Below are positions 3-52,156 of a stretch of 64,000 nt of DNA, piece after piece. Position 1 is the first letter of the stretch; the number at the start of each line of letters is the position of its first letter. The notes under the pieces are model-generated. The model saw only the letters and a program-made list of their open reading frames with translations, searched no databases and had not been told where the DNA came from. Source of the stretch: Planctomycetota bacterium (GTDB lineage Bacteria; Planctomycetota; UBA1135; JAKEFM01); NCBI GenBank assembly GCA_022616055.1, contig JAKEFM010000091.1, positions 1 through 64,000 of the forward strand. Reading direction: 5' to 3'. The translations under genes and the position numbers were made by a program.

Positions 3-686
3 ATGGAGGAAGCCGCGGCGAGCCTCCTCGCCCGGTACCGGGAGCCGGGCCTGTTCCGGTTCGAGACGAGGGTGAGGCGCGGGACGAACGACCTGCGCGT
101 GTCGACCTGGCTCCAGGGGGGACTCCTCCTCGAGGCCCTCGGGAAGTACCGGCTCGCCGGAGGGAAACGGCAGGTCGCGAGGGAGATGGGGGGCCTCGCG
201 CGGTTCCTCGCTCAGAACGCCCTCGACGGGCGTCGCGGCCGGCTCCACGGGTTCATCGAGGTCGATGGGGAGACCGGGCGCGTCATCGGGACCCGAGGCT
301 CGGTCCCGCCGCCGTACTCGATGTATCCGGTCGCGGGACTCCTCCGCGCGGCGGAGGCGACGGGCGATCTCTCCCTGGTCAGGGTGGCCAGGAACTGGGT
401 CGACGCGCTACGGCCGAGCCTCCCGGACTTCCGGCCGCGGTTTCCCGCGAACGGAATCTCGATCGCGCTGCGCTCTTTCCCCTTCGCGCGGGTCGGGCGC
501 CGATCGCTCAGCGCAGGACGACCTCGCCGAAGTACTCCTCCTCCCCGCGGGCGAGCCACACCCGGAGGACGCCTTTCGGCGGGATCCCCTGGAGGAGGGA
601 GGCGAGGTCCTCGGGCGTCGCGACGGCGGTCATGCCTCCGGAGCGGGGGGGGAGACCGACGCCGAGGAGGAGATCCCCGGTCTTGA
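3..686 (+). CDS. Hypothetical protein, possibly 5'-partial, 3' end doubtful
   Basis: No function recognised. Residues 1 to about 155 look genuinely coding, with helix-rich text such as STWLQGGLLLEALGKY and YPVAGLLRAAEATGD that resembles the repeated hairpins of alpha/alpha-toroid enzymes (sugar hydrolase or terpene cyclase folds). That resemblance is only an impression. The ATG lies at base 3, so the true start may be upstream of the window. From about residue 160 the translation turns into Arg/Pro/Gly-rich text exactly where the frame runs antisense to the htrA gene, an overlap of about 179 bases. The natural C-terminus is therefore probably lost, either by a frameshift or by a rearrangement near base 480-500. 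Confidence 0.5.
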   Translation: MEEAAASLLARYREPGLFRFETRVRRGTNDLRVSTWLQGGLLLEALGKYRLAGGKRQVAREMGGLARFLAQNALDGRRGRLHGFIEVDGETGRVIGTRGSVPPPYSMYPVAGLLRAAEATGDLSLVRVARNWVDALRPSLPDFRPRFPANGISIALRSFPFARVGRRSLSAGRPRRSTPPPRGRATPGGRLSAGSPGGGRRGPRASRRRSCLRSGGGDRRRGGDPRS

Positions 687-1878
687 AGCCGACCTTCTCG
701 GCCCGGGACTTCGGAACGAGGCCCGCGACCCGGAGCGCTCCTTCCCCGCGGGCGCGGATCGGCTCGACGGAGCAGCCGAGTCGCTCCCGAAGGTAGCGGT
801 TCGCGGCGGACCCGAGGATGACCGACGCCGTCCACTCCTTGTCGCCCCGCCGGAGGCGCAGCTGGATCCGCTCCCCGGCGCTGCGGGGGAGGAGGCGCTT
901 CGAGAGTTCGAGGGTGCTCGTGACGGAGGTACCCCCGGCTCCGACGACGCGGTCGCCCGCCTCGATCCCGGCGAGGGCGGCGGGCCCGCCGGGCTCGACG
1001 GAGGCGACCGTCGTCCCCTCCCCCTCCTCGAACTTCATCCCGAGCCAGAACCGGGTCGAGCGGTCGAGGTCGAAGAGGTTCCTGTGGAGGATGTCGAGGA
1101 CGCGGTCGACGGGGATCGCGAAGCCGATCCCCTGCGCCTGGGGGAGGATCGCGGTGTTGATGCCGATCAGCTCGCCCCGGAGATTGAGGAGGGGCCCGCC
1201 GGAGTTGCCGGGGTTGATCGCGGCGTCGGTCTGGAGGAGGCCGCGATAGCTCCTCCCCTCGGCCGGCAGGTGCAGCTCCCGGTCGACGGCGGAGAGGATC
1301 CCGGCGGAGACCGTGCTGGCGTGGGCGTTCAGCCCCTCCCCGAGGGCGTTGCCGATGGCGACCACCGTCTCGCCGATCAGGAGGTCGTCGGAGCGGCCGA
1401 GTCGGACGGCGTGGAAGGGCTGCGGCCCGTCGATCTTCAGGAGCGCCAGGTCGTTCTCGCGGTCGACGCCGACCGCCGTCGCGGAGTGCTCCCGCGGATC
1501 GTCCTGCCGGTCGAACCGGACGACGATCCGGGCCGCTCCGCGCACGACGTGCTCGTTCGTGACGATGTAGCCCATCGGGTCGATCACGACGCCGGACCCC
1601 TCGAGGTGGTCGGCCTCCTCCATCGTCCGGCCGCGGGGAAACCAACCCCAGTCGGCGATCGTCCGTTCCACCGTCCGCGTCGTCCGGATGTGGACGACGG
1701 CGGGGCGGGCGGCGAGGACGACGCGGACGACGGGCGTCGCCCGCTCCCCCTCGCCCGGGTCGCCGTCCTGATCCCCCTGCGCCGGTCGCGAGTCGGGAGC
1801 CCTCGTGTCCCCCGGCGGGAGCGCGAAGAAGAAGAGCGAGGGGACGAGTGCGCGGGCGATCCCGAGGCCCAGATACAT
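508..1878 (-). CDS. HtrA/DegP-like secreted serine protease with two PDZ domains
   Basis: Family S1C protease acting on misfolded or unassembled envelope proteins. From the chosen start (456 aa) it has a hydrophobic N-terminus (MYLGLGIARALVPSLFFFA) that looks like a signal peptide or anchor. A chymotrypsin-like domain follows with the triad His110 (TNEHVV), Asp143 (ENDLALL) and Ser226 (NPGNSGGPLL). The first PDZ domain covers about residues 270-350. A second, weaker PDZ covers about 365-450 (VGFKTGDLLLGV). The frame stays open to 2043, but the extra 55 residues are Arg/His-rich and would bury the signal peptide, so the ATG at 1878 is preferred; no strong ribosome site decides this. It is convergent with the damaged gene at the window start. 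Confidence 0.88.
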   Translation of the reverse strand: MYLGLGIARALVPSLFFFALPPGDTRAPDSRPAQGDQDGDPGEGERATPVVRVVLAARPAVVHIRTTRTVERTIADWGWFPRGRTMEEADHLEGSGVVIDPMGYIVTNEHVVRGAARIVVRFDRQDDPREHSATAVGVDRENDLALLKIDGPQPFHAVRLGRSDDLLIGETVVAIGNALGEGLNAHASTVSAGILSAVDRELHLPAEGRSYRGLLQTDAAINPGNSGGPLLNLRGELIGINTAILPQAQGIGFAIPVDRVLDILHRNLFDLDRSTRFWLGMKFEEGEGTTVASVEPGGPAALAGIEAGDRVVGAGGTSVTSTLELSKRLLPRSAGERIQLRLRRGDKEWTASVILGSAANRYLRERLGCSVEPIRARGEGALRVAGLVPKSRAEKVGFKTGDLLLGVGLPPRSGGMTAVATPEDLASLLQGIPPKGVLRVWLARGEEEYFGEVVLR

Positions 1879-2239
1879 GTAGGGGGAGGAGAGGGGCGTC
1901 GACCGGCATGGTACGGCCCGGAGCCCTTCCCGGTTGGTCCGCCGGAGCCGATGCCAGGATCGGGGGTGGAGGTCGTCGGCTTGCGAATGCCGGCGGCGGT
2001 CGCTGGCGGGTGCGGTCACGTGCGGGACGACGGGGCGTCGCATGTCGAGCGCCGCGGTTGCCGCCGCGTCCGCCTCGAACCCGCCGCGGGGTGGCCGCGA
2101 TCCCAGGCGACCGGACGGGCGCGAACCCTCACGGGAGTGCCCCCAGATCGAGCTGTTCGCAGCGTGAAGAGCGACCCTTTTCCGTGCAGCCCGCCAGACA
2201 TAAGCCGAGACTCCGCTGGATCTTGCATAGGTACGGAAT
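1879..2239. other. Intergenic, no supported gene
   Basis: Between the htrA start and the palindrome array the frames are open only because of high GC. Their translations are Arg/Gly/Pro-rich with no recognisable domain. The htrA promoter should lie here, but I see no convincing -35/-10 pair. Confidence 0.5.
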
Positions 2240-2538
2240 CGATCAAGCGAGAGTGCCCCGGGGGAACTCTCGCTCGACGAGGAGTGCCCCGGGGCGAAAT
2301 CGATCGAGCGAAATGGCCATATCGCGCGATCAAGACGGTCCCGGGGACCGTTTCGCTCGAGGAATAGGGCCCTATTGCGCGCTCAATTCGGACATGATGG
2401 CCGAATCGCTCGCGCGATAGGGCCTTATTGCTCGTTCAATTCTTCCCCCAGGGAGATATCGATCGCGCGATAAGGCCTTATTGCTCGTTCAATTTCGTCT
2501 CCGTGGCGAAATCGATCGAGCGATAGGGGCCTATCGCG
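2240..2538. repeat. Tandem array of 53-bp palindromic units
   Basis: Units begin with cgatcgagcg or a close variant at 2240, 2301, 2354, 2407, 2460 and 2513. Four units (2301-2512) are exactly 53 bp. The first is 61 bp and the last is partial. Each unit contains a near-perfect palindrome centred on ggcc, such as ataaggccttat, flanked by arms like gatcgagcg and tgctcgttca. A second inverted repeat spans the unit junction (attcgg/ccgaat at 2387-2406, atttcg/cgaaat at 2493-2512). The loops differ between units while the arms stay paired, so the array could fold as a chain of about ten hairpins. It is clearly less GC-rich than its surroundings. No function is known to me. Confidence 0.85.
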
Positions 2539-2750
2539 GCCCTCGGACGAGGCTCCCGGAGGAGTCGGTGCCGGAGCGAGCGCCGGGATGGCCGGAAGAG
2601 GCGCTGGGCCGTCCCTACCTGCGCGGGTACGGTCGCTCGCTCGAAGTTCTCGACTACGGACCCGTCGGGGCGTCCCAGGCCTCCGCCGAGGTCCCCGACC
2701 CGAAGCCCGGGTGCGCCCACCGGCGTCCCCGGAGCAGGGAGAGCGCGCCG

Positions 2751-3023
2751 ATGCTCTTCATGGTCATCGAACGGTTTCGGTCGGGCCGAGCGCCCGACGT
2801 CTACCGACGATTCCGGGATCGGGGGCGGATGGCTCCCGAGGGGGTGCGGTACGTCTCGAGCTGGGTCGACCTCGGTTTCCAGCGCTGCTTCCAGGTGATG
2901 GAGGCGAAGGACGAGGCGCTCCTCAGGGAGTGGACCCGACACTGGGAGGACCTGGTCGAGTTCGACATCGTCCCCGTCCTGACCTCGGAGGAGGCGGCCG
3001 CGGCGATGGCGCCGAACCTGTGA
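2751..3023 (+). CDS. DUF3303 family small protein
   Basis: A 90-aa protein resembling the DUF3303 family: it opens MLFMVIERFR, continues with a GVRYVSSWVD core and closes with an aromatic helix before FDIVPVLTSEE. These are small alpha/beta dimeric-barrel-like proteins of unknown role, often annotated as superfamily relatives of antibiotic monooxygenase. The ATG at 2751 is chosen because a purine-rich site (agggag) lies about 10 bases upstream and because family proteins begin at this motif. The open frame back to 2481 runs into the palindrome array and is not protein-like. The stop codon forms the first bases of a palindromic repeat shared with 3489-3510. Confidence 0.75.
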   Translation: MLFMVIERFRSGRAPDVYRRFRDRGRMAPEGVRYVSSWVDLGFQRCFQVMEAKDEALLREWTRHWEDLVEFDIVPVLTSEEAAAAMAPNL

Positions 3024-3025
3024 GG

Positions 3026-3041
3026 CGACCCACGTGGGTCG
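3026..3041. repeat. 16-bp palindrome, copy 1
   Basis: Perfect palindrome cgacccacgtgggtcg immediately after the DUF3303 stop. The same sequence, with the same preceding tga(g/a)g context, recurs at 3494-3509. The two copies bracket the vapBC remnant. It could act as a terminator stem or a protein-binding site. Confidence 0.8.
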
Positions 3042-3100
3042 AAGGAGCGGGTGCGACCGGGGAAAGGGGTTCCCCCGTCACGCTCCAGGCCCCCCGCTCG

Positions 3101-3187
3101 TCAGACCATCTCGACTCGGGCGCGGTGCCAGCCGCCCGCCGCAGGCAGGAGGACTTCTAGGAGCGCGGAGGAATCGACGACGATCAA
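3101..3187 (-). pseudogene. VapC-like PIN toxin, truncated remnant
   Basis: Starts with TTG overlapping the end of the antitoxin gene, as in many vapBC pairs. The first residues (IVVDSSALLEVLL) are the classic N-terminal strand of a PIN-domain ribonuclease including its first catalytic Asp. The frame then diverges and stops after 28 residues, against about 130 in intact toxins. The remaining acidic residues of the PIN active site are absent, so no toxin activity is expected. I found no continuation of the domain in the other frames before the DUF3303 gene, which points to a deletion rather than a single frameshift. Confidence 0.65.
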
Positions 3188-3414
3188 TGGCGCCCTCGCT
3201 CGCCGCGAACCGCCCGGATAGGGGAGATCCGGGGCTTCACCGGGGAGCGGCTCGCGATCCGCGCGCGCAACTCCTCGACCGTCGGGCGCTCCGCCGCCCG
3301 GCGAACCTCGCGCAGGAGGTAGTCGGAGAGCGTGAGGCCCTCGAGGGCCGCGCGCGCCTTGAGCTTGCGATGCAGGTCCTCGGGGACGTGACGGATCTGG
3401 AGCATGCGGGGCAT
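3184..3414 (-). CDS. VapB/FitA-like ribbon-helix-helix antitoxin
   Basis: A 76-aa protein with an N-terminal Arc/MetJ-type fold: strand MPRMLQIRHVPEDLHRKL, then helices ARAALEGLTLSDYLLREV. This matches FitA/VapB antitoxins, which bind the operon promoter and neutralise a PIN-domain toxin through the C-terminal tail. The tail (residues 45-76) is basic and unremarkable. The partner gene immediately downstream is reduced to 28 codons, so this antitoxin is orphaned. It may persist as a simple DNA-binding protein or as an antidote to another VapC elsewhere. Confidence 0.75.
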   Translation of the reverse strand: MPRMLQIRHVPEDLHRKLKARAALEGLTLSDYLLREVRRAAERPTVEELRARIASRSPVKPRISPIRAVRGERGRH

Positions 3415-4591: not shown

Positions 4592-5026
4592 ATGCGCATA
4601 TCCGCAACCGAAGCGCTCGCGGTCCGCGGCCCGGAGCCGTCCCGGGTCCTCGGGGCGTTCGCCGAGCCGACCCGATTGCGGATCGTCGCGATCCTCCTCC
4701 ACGTCGAGGAGATCTGCGGCTGCGAAGTCGAGGCGGTCCTCGGGACGACCCAGTCCCGCGCCTCCCGGCACCTCGCGACGCTCCGCGCGGCGGGGATCGT
4801 CGAGGACGAGAGGCGCGGCGCCTGGGTCTACCACCGGCTCGCCGCGCGCGCGCCTCGATGGCTGCGGACGATCCTCGAGGCGGTCCACGACGCCGTCCGG
4901 GCCGATCCGGAGGTCCGGCGGGCGCTCGACCGGCTCGAGCGACGGGGACGTTCGAGGGAATGCGACGGACTCCCCCCGAGGGGGAGGGACCGGGTCCGGT
5001 CCGCCCGCCTCACCTGCTGCGGATGA
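4592..5026 (+). CDS. arsR: ArsR/SmtB-family arsenic-responsive repressor
   Basis: A 144-aa winged-helix repressor expected to release the ars promoter on binding trivalent arsenic. The core runs from [14 protein letters not shown] through the recognition helix [17 protein letters not shown] to the wing [11 protein letters not shown]. The segment [13 protein letters not shown] places Cys42 and Cys44 where the ELCVCDL As(III) motif sits in classical ArsR. The C-terminus ends in a Cys-Cys pair (LTCCG) that could give further thiol ligands. The ATG at 4592 is chosen over the GTG at 4514 because the extra residues lie outside the fold. Its stop overlaps the aquaporin start (ATGA). Confidence 0.88.
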
Positions 5027-5694
5027 GAGAGAACCGCCTCTGGCAGCGGTGCCTCGCGGAGGGGATCGGCGCGGGGTTCCTTGTCTTCGCGGGCTGCGGG
5101 GCGATCGTCGTCGACGCCGTTTCGGGCGGAGGGGTCACGCCCGTCGGGATCGGCGCGACGTTCGGGCTCGTCGTCCTCGCCCTCGTCTACGCCCTCGGAC
5201 ATGTCTCCGGTGCCCACCTCAATCCGGCCGTCACGGTCGCCTTCGCGGCGTGCCGGAGGTTCCCTCGCGGAGAGGTGCTCCCGTACGTGGCCGCCCAGGC
5301 CGTGGGCGCGATCGTCGGGGCCTCGCTCCTCCGCGTGCTCTTCGGAGCCGTCGGAGGGCTCGGGGCGACCCGTCCGGCCTCGAGCGCGTGGCAGGCCCTC
5401 GGCCTCGAGGCCGCCATGACGGCCGCTCTCATGTTCGTCGTCGCGGCCGTCGCGACGGACGGTCGAGCCGTGGGCTCGATGGCCGGAGTCGCGATCGGCG
5501 CCGTCGTCGGGCTCGAGGCGATCTTCGGCGGACCGATCTCGGGCGCGTCGATGAACCCGGCCCGATCGCTCGGTCCCGCCGTCGCGGCCCTCGACGGCCG
5601 ATTCCTCTGGATCTACGTCCTCGCGCCCCTCGTCGGCGCGGTCGCCGGGGCCTTCGCCTACGAGGCGGTGCGGGTCGAGGAGCCGCGCCGGTGA
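5023..5694 (+). CDS. aqpS: MIP-family channel, likely arsenite-permeable AqpS
   Basis: A 223-aa aquaporin/glyceroporin with six membrane segments and two NPA half-helices, Asn67-Pro68-Ala69 (HLNPAVT) and Asn178-Pro179-Ala180 followed by Arg181 (MNPARS), the usual selectivity-filter arginine. Length and motifs are normal for the family. Its position between arsR and arsC matches ars operons (for example in rhizobia) where AqpS lets arsenite made by ArsC leave the cell down its gradient in place of an ArsB/Acr3 pump. No Acr3 or ArsB gene is present here. Both ends overlap neighbours by 4 bases, implying translational coupling. Confidence 0.85.
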
Positions 5695-6143
5695 AGTCGG
5701 TCCTCTTCCTCTGCACCGGGAACTCCTGCCGCAGCCAGATGGGGGAGGGGTGGCTGCGGCGCCTCGGGGGGGACCGATTCGAAGGCGCGAGCGCGGGGAC
5801 GGAGCCGTCGGTCGTGAACCCGATGGCGATCGAGGTCATGGAGGAGGCGGGCGTCGACCTCTCGGGCCACCGCTCGAAGCACCTCCGGGAGTTCTCCGGG
5901 AGGCATTTCGACTTCGTCGTCACGGTCTGCGATCGGGCGAAGGAGTCCTGTCCGATCTTCCCGGGGGCGCCGACCCTCCTCCATTGGTCCATCCCGGACC
6001 CGGCGGCGTTCACGGGGACGGAGAAGGAGCGGCTCCGGGTGTTCCGGGACGCCCGGGACGAGATCCGGGATCGGATCCGGCAGTTCCTGGAGGATGTGGA
6101 GGGGAACCGACGCGGCGATTCCGACAGGCAGCCTCCCCGGTAG
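5691..6143 (+). CDS. arsC: Arsenate reductase, thioredoxin-coupled LMW-phosphatase type
   Basis: A 150-aa enzyme that reduces arsenate to arsenite in the cytoplasm. It begins with the low-molecular-weight phosphatase P-loop (CTGNSCRS, Cys8 to Ser15) and carries the redox pair Cys80 (VTVCDRA) and Cys87 (ESCPIFPG), the spacing of Bacillus/Staphylococcus-type ArsC. The general acid is probably Asp103 (SIPDP). The GTG start overlaps the aqpS stop (GTGA). The product arsenite is presumably exported through the upstream channel. Confidence 0.93.
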
Positions 6144-19708: not shown

Positions 19709-20572
19709 TTGCTCGTCCCCCTGTTCCGCCGCTCCTCCCTCTCCGGCCACCGCGACGGTCACCGTCCGGGGACGAGGGCCTTCCCGCTGACGGAGGAGAA
19801 CCGCCACGCCGTCCTCGCGGCGCGGGAAGCGGCGGCGAATCCGGGGGGGATCTTCAATCCGCTCCTCCTCCTCGGCCCTCCGCGGGCCGGCAAGTCGGGG
19901 CTCCTCGCCGCGCTCGCCGCGGACTTCGCGCGCCAGGGGCTGCGCCCCTGCCTCCTGCGCGTGCGCGAGCTGGGGGCGCGCTTCGTGCGCGCCGCCCGGA
20001 GGGGACGGCTCGAGGATCTGACGCTCGGCCTCCTCGGCCACGGCGCCCTCCTCCTCGACGAGGCGGAGCGGTTCGCCGGCCGCGAGCGCCTCTGCCGCAC
20101 CTCGGCGGCGATCGTCGAGTCGTTCCTCTGCCGGCGCAGCCCCGTCGCCGCCGCGAGCCGGCTCCACCCCCGGGAGCTCCCGGGGTTCGATCCACGCCTT
20201 GCCGCCCTCCTCGACGGGGGATTCCGCGCCACGATCGGGGAGAGGAGCGGGAGGCCGACCCTCGAGGGGATCGCGGCCGATACGGCGAGGAGGACCGGCG
20301 TCGAGCCCGGGGCGCTGCGGGGACGCGGGCGCTCGGCGTCTCGCGCCTCCGCCCGGGGCGAGTTCGTCCTCGCGGCGCTCGAGGCGGGCTTCACCCTCCC
20401 CGAGGTCGGCCGCTTCCTCGGCGACCGGTCGGTGGAGGCGGTCGGGCACCTCGCGCACCGGGCGCGCGCGCGCGTCCGGTCGGCCGCCGCCGCGCCGGTG
20501 GGAGCGATCGTCGCGGCGGTGGGAGCGATCGCCGCGCCGGTCGGAGCGATTGGAGGCGCGTTCGCGGGATGA
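19709..20572 (+). CDS. Divergent DnaA-like AAA+ protein
   Basis: 287 aa. Residues about 25-190 resemble DnaA domain III: FNPLLLLGPPRAGKS (Walker A at 56-63), a Walker B-like ALLLDEAERF near 113-122 and a LHPRELPGFDPRL segment matching the DnaA HPxELPxLDxRL motif. About 195-260 resembles DnaA domain IV (GVEPGALRGRGRS, then FTLPEVGRFLGDRSVEAVGHL), but the DHSTV DNA-recognition signature is altered. Domains I-II are absent, so this is not the main initiator. An Hda/DnaA-paralogue regulating replication is possible. The C-terminus carries Ala/Gly/Val repeats from a 21-bp DNA repeat. Coupled to tmk by ATGA. Confidence 0.7.
   Translation: MLVPLFRRSSLSGHRDGHRPGTRAFPLTEENRHAVLAAREAAANPGGIFNPLLLLGPPRAGKSGLLAALAADFARQGLRPCLLRVRELGARFVRAARRGRLEDLTLGLLGHGALLLDEAERFAGRERLCRTSAAIVESFLCRRSPVAAASRLHPRELPGFDPRLAALLDGGFRATIGERSGRPTLEGIAADTARRTGVEPGALRGRGRSASRASARGEFVLAALEAGFTLPEVGRFLGDRSVEAVGHLAHRARARVRSAAAAPVGAIVAAVGAIAAPVGAIGGAFAG
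20498..20558 (+). repeat. Three 21-bp tandem repeats inside the dnaA-like gene
   Basis: Units start at 20498, 20519 and 20540, each containing gt(g/c)ggagcgat, and encode VGAIVAA, VGAIAAP and VGAIGG. The third unit is diverged. In-frame period and location at the extreme 3' end suggest slippage-driven length variation. Confidence 0.75.
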
Positions 20573-21180
20573 GGCGAGGGGTCTTCCTCGTGCTCGACGG
20601 GCCGGACGGGGCGGGGAAGACGACGCAGGTCGCGCGGCTCGCCCGACGGCTCCGGCGCAGCGGGAGGCGCGTCCTCGTCGTCCGGGAGCCGGGCGGGACC
20701 CCGCTCGGCGAGGCGCTGCGGCGACTCCTCCTTCACGGCTCGATCCCGATCGGGGCGGGGGCGCAGGCGCTCCTCTTCGGGGCCGCCCGCGCGGAGCTGC
20801 TCGAGCAGGTCGTCGGCCCCGCGCTGCGGCGCGGCTGGGTCGTCCTCTCCGACCGGGGGACCCCCTCGACCTTCGCCTATCAGGGGATCGCGGGGTCGGT
20901 GGGGGGGGAGCGCGTCCTCGCGCTCGCCCGGGCCTTCCACGGCGAGCCGGAGGCGAACCTCCTCCTCCTCCTCGACGTCCCCCCCGAGGTCGCGAGGGCC
21001 CGGCGGCGAGGGCGGGATCGCTTCGAGCGGAGGGGGCTCCCCTACGCGCGCGCCGTGCGCCGCGGATTCCAGGCCTTCGCCCGCCGCGGCGGCGGGCGCG
21101 TGCGCCTTCTCGACGGGTCGGCTCCGAGGGGCGAGGTCGAGGAGGCGATCTGGCGTGCCGTCCGCCCCCTCGTTTCCTGA
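20569..21180 (+). CDS. tmk: Thymidylate kinase
   Basis: 203 aa, the usual length. It phosphorylates dTMP to dTDP. P-loop GPDGAGKTTQ near residues 11-20, the VREPGGTPLGEALR dTMP-binding motif and the SDRGTPSTFAYQG motif (commonly DRYxxSxxAYQG; here Gly-Thr-Pro replaces the usual aromatic context). The lid is Arg-rich (ARARRRGRDRFERR). The ATG overlaps the dnaA-like stop. The end overlaps the holB start by 26 bases, the common tmk-holB arrangement. Confidence 0.93.
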   Translation: MRRGVFLVLDGPDGAGKTTQVARLARRLRRSGRRVLVVREPGGTPLGEALRRLLLHGSIPIGAGAQALLFGAARAELLEQVVGPALRRGWVVLSDRGTPSTFAYQGIAGSVGGERVLALARAFHGEPEANLLLLLDVPPEVARARRRGRDRFERRGLPYARAVRRGFQAFARRGGGRVRLLDGSAPRGEVEEAIWRAVRPLVS

Positions 21181-49636: not shown

Positions 49637-52156
49637 GTGCGCCTGGTCGGTCTCCTCCGTTCCGCGGCACTCCTCGCCGGAGCGTTCGTGGTCTCTGTCC
49701 GGGCCCAGACCATGCGTTTCGGCGAGCTGCACCGGATGCTCCCGCCGGCCGACGATCTTTCCCTGGCCGCCGTCCTGGGGGATGTCGACGGGGACGGGGA
49801 TCTCGACGCCCTGATCGGGAACCTCGAGCAGGACCGTCTCTACCTGAACGACAGCTCGGGGGTCTTCGCCGACGCGACCGCCCGGCTCCCCGCGGTTCTC
49901 GACAACACCTGGGACGTCGCCCTTGGGGACGTGGACGGGGACGGCGATCTCGACGCATGGATCGGGAACAACGGGCCGGACCGTCTCCACCTGAACGACG
50001 GCTCGGGGGTCTTCACCGATGCCACGTCCCAGATCCCCCTGGTCTTCGACTACACCTTCGACGTCGCCCTGGGGGACGTGGACGGCGACGGGGACCTCGA
50101 CGCCCTGACCGGAAACGGCGGCTCCCTCCCTGGACAACTGGACGGTCTCTATCTCAACGACGGCTCGGGGGTCTTCACCGACGCTACCGTCCAGCTCTCC
50201 ACGGTCCCCGCGCTCACCCGGGCCGTCGGCCTCGGGGACGTGGACGGGGACGGCGACCTCGACGCCCTGTTCGGGAACATCGGGCAAGACGGTCTCTTCC
50301 TGAACGACGGCTCGGGAGTCTTCACCGACGCCACCTCGCAGCTCCCGGCAATCGTCGACAACACCTTTGCCCTCGCGCTGGGAGACGTGGACGGGGACGG
50401 AGATGTCGACGCCCTGACCGGGAACTTCGGGTTTCAAGTCCGTCTCTACCTGAACGGCGGCTCAGGCGTCTTCACCGACGCCCCGGCGCAGATCCCCTTG
50501 ATCTTCGACGCCACCGCCGCCCTCGCCCTCGGGGACGTAGACGCGGACGGGGATCTCGACAGCTTCCTCGGGAACGGCGGCGGAACCTTGGCGCAGGCGG
50601 AGCGCCTCTGGCTCAACAACGGCGCAGGGGTCTTCGCCAATGCCTCCCTTCCATTCCCCGCGATCCCCGACCGCACCTTCGCCGTCGCCCTGGGGGACCT
50701 CGACGGGGACGGGGACCTCGACGCCCTCGCCGGGAACGTCGGGCAGGACCGTCTCTATCTGAACGACGGCTCCGGTGCGTTCGCTCACGCGACCGCATCG
50801 CTGTCCCCCACGCCCCACCTGACCCCGGAGATCGCGTTGGGCGACGTCGAGGGGGACGGCGACCTCGACGCCCTGATAGGCGGGGACCCGGCGAGTCTTC
50901 TCTTCATCAACGACGGGTCCGGGCTCTTCACCCAGGCCGCATCGAGCCCTCCGCTCTCGGGGGGCACCTGCCTCGCCCTGGGAGACGTGGACGGGGATGC
51001 GGACCTCGACGTGATGATCGGGAGGGTCGTGGGGAACCGCCTCTACGTGAACAACGGCTCCGGCGCCTTCGCCGACGCCACCGCCCAGCTCCCCGCGTTG
51101 TTTGACTGGACCTACGCCGTAGCCCTCGGGGACGTGGACGGGGACGGGGACCTCGACGCGCTCGTCGGGAACGGAGGCAACTTCCCCGCATCGCAGGACC
51201 GCCTCTATCTCAACAACGGGGCGGGCGTCTTCTCGAATGCCGCCTCCCCGCTTCCGGCGATCGTCGACGAGACCTTGGCCCTCGCCCTGGGGGACGTCGA
51301 CGGGGACGGCGACCTCGACGCCCTGTTCGGGAACGGCGGCTCCTACCCCGGCCAACAGAACCGTCTCTACCTCAATGACGGCTCGGGCGTCTTCGCCGAC
51401 GCGACCGCACAGCTCCCCGCCGTGCTCGACGACACGCGGGCCGTCGCCCTGGGGGACGTCGACGGGGATGGGGACCTCGACGTCCTCGTCGGGAACTTCG
51501 GGCAGGACCGGCTCCACCTGAATGGCGGCTCGGGCGCCTTCACGGACGCCACCGCCCAGCTCCCCGCCAGCTTCGATTCCACCCAAGCGGTCGCCCTGGG
51601 GGACGTCGACGGGGACGGGGACCTCGACGCGCTGATCGGGACCGACTACGGGCAGCAGGAGCGTCTCTATTCGAACGACGGCTCGGGCCTGTTCTCGGAC
51701 GCCACCGCCCAGCTCCCCGCGGTCCTCGACTCCACGGAGGCGCTCGCCCTGGGGGACGTCGACGGGGACGGGGACCTCGACGCCTTGATCGGGTACGACG
51801 AGACGGAGCCAAGCCTCCTCTCGAACCTCAGCCGCCAGCTCGCCTGGAGGGGGATCCCGCGCGTCGGGAAGCCTCTCACGCTGGATCTCTTCGGGCCTTC
51901 CCTGGGAGCCTGGTTCCTCGGCGTCTCGCTTGGGACCGCGAGCGTGCCGATCCCGCCCCTCGGGACGCTGCGGCTCGATCCGGCGAGCTTCTCCTTCGTG
52001 TCCGCGGCCCTCCTCGACGCCCAGGGGCGGGCGTCGATCACCTTCCCCGTGCCGGCGAACGCCTCCTTGATCGGGGCTTCGGTCTACTGGCAGGCCGTCG
52101 TCGTCGGTCCGGCGAGGTTGACGAACCTCGAGGTCGCGACACTCACGAACCTGTGA
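49637..52156 (+). CDS. Secreted FG-GAP/VCBS repeat protein, 14 repeats
   Basis: 839 aa from the chosen GTG. It begins with a signal peptide (LVGLLRSAALLAGAFVVSVRAQ). Fourteen repeats of about 49 residues follow, each with an LGDVDGDGDLDAL-type calcium loop, then a GN..DRLYLNDGSGVF segment and a TAQLPAV segment. Repeats 6, 8, 9 and 14 deviate most. Fourteen would suit two seven-bladed propellers. The last about 110 residues (LAWRGIPRVGKPLTLDLFG to the NLEVATLTNL end) form a separate beta-rich module. The frame is open to a TTG at 49529, but the GTG at 49637 starts directly before the signal. Surface or extracellular location is likely. Confidence 0.85.
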   Translation: MRLVGLLRSAALLAGAFVVSVRAQTMRFGELHRMLPPADDLSLAAVLGDVDGDGDLDALIGNLEQDRLYLNDSSGVFADATARLPAVLDNTWDVALGDVDGDGDLDAWIGNNGPDRLHLNDGSGVFTDATSQIPLVFDYTFDVALGDVDGDGDLDALTGNGGSLPGQLDGLYLNDGSGVFTDATVQLSTVPALTRAVGLGDVDGDGDLDALFGNIGQDGLFLNDGSGVFTDATSQLPAIVDNTFALALGDVDGDGDVDALTGNFGFQVRLYLNGGSGVFTDAPAQIPLIFDATAALALGDVDADGDLDSFLGNGGGTLAQAERLWLNNGAGVFANASLPFPAIPDRTFAVALGDLDGDGDLDALAGNVGQDRLYLNDGSGAFAHATASLSPTPHLTPEIALGDVEGDGDLDALIGGDPASLLFINDGSGLFTQAASSPPLSGGTCLALGDVDGDADLDVMIGRVVGNRLYVNNGSGAFADATAQLPALFDWTYAVALGDVDGDGDLDALVGNGGNFPASQDRLYLNNGAGVFSNAASPLPAIVDETLALALGDVDGDGDLDALFGNGGSYPGQQNRLYLNDGSGVFADATAQLPAVLDDTRAVALGDVDGDGDLDVLVGNFGQDRLHLNGGSGAFTDATAQLPASFDSTQAVALGDVDGDGDLDALIGTDYGQQERLYSNDGSGLFSDATAQLPAVLDSTEALALGDVDGDGDLDALIGYDETEPSLLSNLSRQLAWRGIPRVGKPLTLDLFGPSLGAWFLGVSLGTASVPIPPLGTLRLDPASFSFVSAALLDAQGRASITFPVPANASLIGASVYWQAVVVGPARLTNLEVATLTNL

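Follow-up and report, generated by a model that had tools for sequence, protein, structure and literature searches.

An intergenic array of alternating hairpins with BIME-like organisation and co-varying arms in a Planctomycetota genome

Layout of the locus

The window (the whole 64,000-nt stretch of DNA that was analysed) comes from a 5.78-Mb draft assembly of a Planctomycetota bacterium, which is high in GC, divided into 394 contigs and 94.6% complete, and the closest relatives compared share only its order. The array, a chain of about 11 short arms of alternating orientation (2238-2540), is 2.2 kb away from one end of a 71.7-kb contig and lies in the intergenic gap between two divergent genes, a DegP-like protease on the minus strand and a DUF3303 gene on the plus strand (Table 1). 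The true start of the protease may lie at about 1878, judging from a signal-peptide-like start in the predicted protein, and the right border of the array lies ~210 bp upstream of the start of DUF3303. The initial annotation had described the array as free of any coding frame and AT-richer than its surroundings. Open frames do cross the region mechanically, but the only frame with a Pfam match (DUF3303) starts that match 3' of the array, and the difference in composition is borne out (56% GC in 2295-2530 as against 73.6% in the window).

Two other features of the window lie outside the array. To its right, at 3101-3414, a small RHH antitoxin-like protein is encoded (ParD/FitA-like, slightly under the Pfam cut-offs), with a possible remnant of a PIN-type partner. 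A long coding-type tandem repeat of ~147-162 bp (GDVDGDGDLD-like), resembling FG-GAP repeats, occupies 49765-51800.

Table 1. Coordinates of the array, its parts and flanking genes in the window, and of ParB-like genes with related hairpins on other contigs of the same assembly
Feature	Position	Strand	Basis
Trypsin-like/PDZ (DegP-like) protease, flanking; longest frame	508..2043	-	ORF and Pfam
Whole hairpin array, intergenic	2238..2540	.	Repeat search and folding
Hairpin Y0, upstream, centred on CCCCGGGG; its 17-nt arms are 88% complementary	2243..2277	.	Inverted-repeat search; belongs to dispersed family R2 (55.7 bits; on the circularity of R2 scores see text)
Third arm (GAGGAGTGCCCCGGGG), which nearly repeats the left arm of Y0	2279..2294	.	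Direct repeat
Unit 1, 53 bp: GGCC stem 2299-2333 and variable stem ACGGTCC/GGACCGT 2335-2351	2299..2351	.	
Unit 2, 53 bp: GGCC stem and variable stem ATTCGG/CCGAAT	2352..2404	.	
Unit 3, 53 bp: GGCC stem and variable stem ATTCTTCCC/GGGAGATAT	2405..2457	.	
Unit 4, 53 bp: GGCC stem and variable stem ATTTCG/CGAAAT	2458..2510	.	
Half unit: core plus displaced GGGGCC stem (GATAGG/CCTATC)	2511..2538	.	
12-bp cores (TYGNNCGNNCRA)	starts 2300, 2322, 2375, 2406, 2428, 2459, 2481, 2512 (within 2300..2523)	.	
Diverged core (TCGCTCGAGGAA)	start 2353	.	
DUF3303 protein gene, flanking, divergent from the protease	2751..3023	+	ORF and Pfam
ParB-like gene, contig C378; hairpin at about 21102	20095-20997		
ParB-like gene, contig C153; hairpin at 2309	1290-2192		
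Shorter ParB-like gene, contig C98; hairpins at about 2441 and about 3733	4898-5485		

In a repeat search, 53-nt copies start at 2299, 2352, 2405 and 2458 (spacing 53, 53 and 53) and a fifth, partial copy covers 2501-2538; the TRF score of the array is 171. Of the five and a half units proposed in the initial annotation, four of them of exactly 53 bp, those four and the half unit stand, whereas the upstream part (2238-2298) differs from the unit and consists of a separate CCCCGGGG-centred hairpin at 2243-2277 together with an arm, GAGTGCCCCGGGG, that occurs at both 2251 and 2282. Each unit contains an imperfect GGCC-centred stem in columns 2-35 and a second stem in columns 37-53, the letters of which differ from unit to unit. 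This combination of a GGCC palindrome and a second inverted repeat, which had been claimed for every unit, is present in units 1-4, but the GGCC stem of the fifth is displaced by one or two bases (GGGGCC). A 12-bp near-palindromic core, about TCGMTCGMGCGA, forms the conserved element. Its sense flips at alternate cores, and the core-to-core spacing alternates between 22 and 31 bp. Between the cores, the GGCC-centred stem alternates with the stem of variable sequence, which stays complementary, and the whole array is self-complementary about position 2396 (72% over 101 nt).

Paired changes, third arms and dispersed relatives

Compared with dinucleotide shuffles, the folding energy of 2238-2545 gives z scores of -8.7 on the plus strand and -9.7 on the minus strand. 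When the window was scanned in 532 overlapping stretches of 240 nt (mean -0.3, sd 1.2), the extreme was the stretch starting at 2281 (2281-2520, z -11.3); the next stretch in the array ranks second (-4.2), ahead of one elsewhere in the window (-4.1). In DNA this rich in GC, the array does not stand out by a palindrome count that ignores composition, whereas it does by this comparison with shuffled sequence. The claim that the arms remain complementary while their sequences change is upheld, with Watson-Crick pairs in 25 of 32 cells of the variable stem as against 8.7 ± 2.5 in shuffles. Unit-to-unit identity is 80% in the GGCC part and just 44% in the variable stem, which is nevertheless still paired. 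Since a nine-row set including reversed units counts each hairpin twice, covariation was counted over the four independent plus-strand units only. Across these, 89.5% of cells pair, a slide of one side by any 1-3 columns reduces this to 31-49%, and both sides have changed in 7 of 19 pairs, compared with 3.5 ± 1.2 after shuffling (5 of 500 shuffles as high). The paired changes in the array are thus real, and its wobble pairs (6 G-T and 5 A-C) show no strand bias.

Approximately six related single hairpins are scattered through the intergenic DNA of the genome, outside the Pfam-matched genes examined beside them. A direct search found hairpins resembling the array in both arms and centre on contigs C98 (about 2444 and about 3739), C378 (about 21105) and C365 (34252). 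The outer-base pattern GCGAAA..TTTCRC has 15 matches (8 forward, 7 reverse) as against none for the reversed pattern, and four of these, once both-strand duplicates are set aside, are near-perfect hairpins with a TTTCAC end. Two hairpins are new from this pattern (C52:102 and C153:2309), both having already been weak matches to covariance model R2. Most of the members that R2 finds had also served to train it, so that its scores for those are circular. Seven hairpin rows, drawn from six loci, are a small sample; in them 87% of cells pair, both sides have changed in 4 of 9 pairs, and the covariation score is reached by none of 500 shuffles. The C52 hairpin is linked to the family by its 12 outer bases only. 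T-rich tails follow the hairpins at C52, C153 and C365, which could be ordinary look-alike terminators, and the hairpins at C153 and C378 sit between convergent genes.

A separate ~160-bp MITE-like element, which has no plasmid match, lies on C378 at 34.46-34.63 kb (L052 ~1340-1515); its ends, GTGAATCTGCCCC/GGGGCAGTTTCGTCAC, form an imperfect inverted pair and resemble the arms of the hairpins on C98. This similarity provides a lead, namely that the single hairpins might be joined transposon ends.

The hairpins Y0, C98a, C378, C153 and C365 are each adjoined by a third copy of the variable half-stem, written in the letters of its own locus (p about 0.005-0.01 each, by shuffling); this third arm is absent at C52. 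The C378 and C153 hairpins occupy paralogous positions, ~110 bp 3' of ParB-like genes (79% amino acid identity) and of the same terminator hairpin. Alignment of these two loci continues through the element (GAGAAA .. TTTCGCTCGAG), within which all three arms differ by coordinated changes. Selection on a single hairpin would tie two arms. A three-way change suggests either that the arms are copied from one another or that the inverted arm is obliged to pair with both of its neighbours.

Likeness to known systems

BIMEs consist of REPs that are regularly spaced and alternate in orientation (PMC2817692). The array is organised in the same way, with palindromic stem-loops of ~20-40 bp, cores regularly spaced at 22/31 bp in alternating orientation, and an extragenic position shared with the single hairpins. 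Clustered and solitary forms likewise occur together among the BIMEs of Xanthomonas campestris and E. coli BIME-2 (PMC2817692). Among the identities initially put forward, a REP-like element is the one best supported by this architecture. However, three usual REP features are missing. Copy number is low (one array and about six singles in 5.8 Mb, compared with usually >100 REPs per genome and hundreds of copies for BIMEs), GTAG is absent and CGTC occurs at one of the seven hairpins, and the Y1 tyrosine transposase (RAYT, PF01797) is absent from the 94.6% complete genome, whereas control genomes were positive. For this reason the array is described as organised like a BIME and not as a member of the tagged REP families. 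BIME stems are also near-identical, whereas here they vary from unit to unit. REP-like families without the tag do exist (PMC3733652). Both the GTAG/CGTC-tagged super-families and the untagged repeats share with the array stem-loops of 20-40 bp, dimers or groups, structured spacers and complementary stem changes (PMC3733652), although the present elements are untagged, low in copy number and have a basic form of three arms.

Further copies of the array were sought more widely. A DNA search and covariance model R1 recovered no second array elsewhere in the 5.8-Mb genome and none in 40 to 60 genomes of the same order; a convincing hairpin was likewise absent from the 60 genomes, where R1 matches were weak (E 0.0007 and above) and those inspected looked coding or due to chance. 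A degenerate GGCC-hairpin pattern gave 19 single matches in the genomes of 84,980 species, which were judged to be chance, many being apparently coding, and showed no adjoining tandem array in the contexts displayed; the same pattern had zero matches in viral contigs, and plasmids had no DNA similarity to the array. Regions upstream of the DegP homologues of relatives are non-syntenic and have no DUF3303 neighbour. Matches to the core on contigs C30 and C37 proved to be an ordinary terminator and a chance occurrence, respectively.

Several known systems were ruled out. A CRISPR array does not fit 18-bp 'spacers' that are palindromic and 'repeats' that are 74-94% identical. The integron attC core strings RYYYAAC and GTTRRRY (mutual reverse complements, so that both strands are covered) are absent from the array. 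The window contains no match to parS (TGTTTCACGTGAAACA-like 16-mer) at up to 3 mismatches, no Rfam covariance model matches over the array, and no intrinsic terminator (GC-rich stem followed by a T-run) is present in 1700-3100.

Explanations of the array

The array is best read, with confidence that is evenly balanced, as a local cluster, organised like a BIME, of a REP-like palindrome family that is untagged and low in copy number. The best reading of its complementarity is that this is kept by arm-templated copying and/or by selection on structure. The basic element would consist of an arm, an inverted arm and a further arm in succession, with centres of two kinds between them, one conserved (TCGCTCGAGCGA-type) and one of variable sequence, and in the window this element would have grown to ~11 arms by 53-bp tandem duplication. 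Neighbouring arms may fold into hairpins in single-stranded or negatively supercoiled DNA, such as that of a divergent-promoter region, and template switching during replication would then repeatedly re-copy arms from each other, so that the hairpins stay complementary while their letters drift between units and loci. Such DNA-level folding and re-copying would explain the paired and triple changes, the drift from unit to unit and the lack of strand preference, suggesting that the element acts as DNA. Template switching in quasipalindromes is known to homogenise palindrome arms and thereby to produce paired changes (PMC7202029, PMC8604942), although in the present case its substrate would be a repeated element that has a conserved core, and several adjacent arms would be involved. 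Conservation of the core falls outside the template-switch account and requires a separate explanation, most simply that a protein recognises the 12-bp core. Both template switching and recognition by a protein are proposed from the pattern and from papers on other organisms.

The initial annotation took the paired changes as a sign of selection on structure, which is one of two explanations, the rival being template-switch homogenisation of the palindrome arms. Overall, what it observed is confirmed and its interpretation is partly supported, with a function for the array being put forward here by inference. The array constitutes a compact natural case in which adjacent palindrome arms co-evolve and their sequence drifts, with a conserved core between them. 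It allows selection on structure to be separated from template-switch homogenisation, which bears on how covariation in bacterial repeats is read, and it broadens REP/BIME-like organisation to include a genome that lacks the usual tag and transposase.

It is rather unlikely that the array instead serves a dimeric protein binding several TCGMTCGMGCGA palindromes in a row on B-DNA, thereby providing the divergent promoters with an operator or silencer, or else forming a centromere-like site. The multimeric binding site already envisaged in the initial annotation would fit the sequence of the conserved 12-bp core at its fixed spacing, as well as a period of 53 bp (about five helical turns) and the divergent-gene setting, but a plain operator would not need complementary variable stems. 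The candidate binder for the cores is a ParB-like paralogue family (HTH_ParB, ParB_N), members of which lie near three related hairpin sites (C378, C153 and C98); the C98 member is also followed directly by a further strong palindrome cluster (5612-5718). However, the C378 and C153 sites are one duplicated segment, so that this association amounts to two events at most, and no ParB-like gene is present on the 71.7-kb contig of the window or in the examined parts of C365 and C52; the family is therefore a lead only. The parS sites of ParB (and the NBS sites of Noc) are similarly short and palindromic, but the core here differs from them, the window lacks a parS match, as described above, and no ParA was seen. 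A more specific proposal, in which the array and the single hairpins are targets of a solitary ParB-like family without ParA that reads the core plus freely varying self-complementary stems, with arrays growing arm by arm, is very improbable.

It is improbable that the array is transcribed either into the leader of the DUF3303 mRNA or into a small RNA of 5-10 hairpins. The structured RNA suggested initially agrees with the very low folding energy, with the covariation and with a DUF3303 start only ~210 bp past the end of the array. However, the two strands fold equally well and the wobble pairs favour neither, Rfam offers no match, and the array is not conserved in relatives; no sigma-70-like promoter was found either, which is weak evidence in a high-GC organism.

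A functionless by-product, in which a terminator or random palindrome was expanded by slippage and owes its complementarity to the mutation process alone, appears quite improbable. The adjacent units 3 and 4 resemble each other most closely (94% in their GGCC part), as if recently duplicated, and the joint change of all arms at a locus fits concerted copying, unlike selection on one hairpin. Nevertheless, the 12-bp core is kept across units and loci and the adjoining stems are not, a difference that a purely mutational process would not predict. The chain of intrinsic terminators also raised at the outset is scarcely tenable, since the T-rich tails and convergent settings of some single relatives would suit it but the array itself has no T-tracts, 1700-3100 contains no terminator-like site and both neighbouring genes point away from the array.

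Other repeats and palindromes were noted around ParB genes of this genome. Four tandem units of 108-115 bp (AAAAAACC..GGGCSTCTCGATCGTCCTT..palindrome) lie at 19488-19860 on C378 (L196 7488-7859), upstream of the ParB-like gene, and also precede its paralogue (at C153:764-1100); they might represent promoters in tandem or an array of small RNAs. Directly 3' of the ParB-like gene of C98, at 5612-5718, are nested palindromes, GTGAGACTTCG/CGAAGTCTCAC and CCGAGTCTCC/GGAGACTCGG, with fold z scores of -4.6/-5.8. A canonical chromosomal ParB gene, on C341 (L144 17600), holds a parS-like site, GTTTCACGTGGAACAC.
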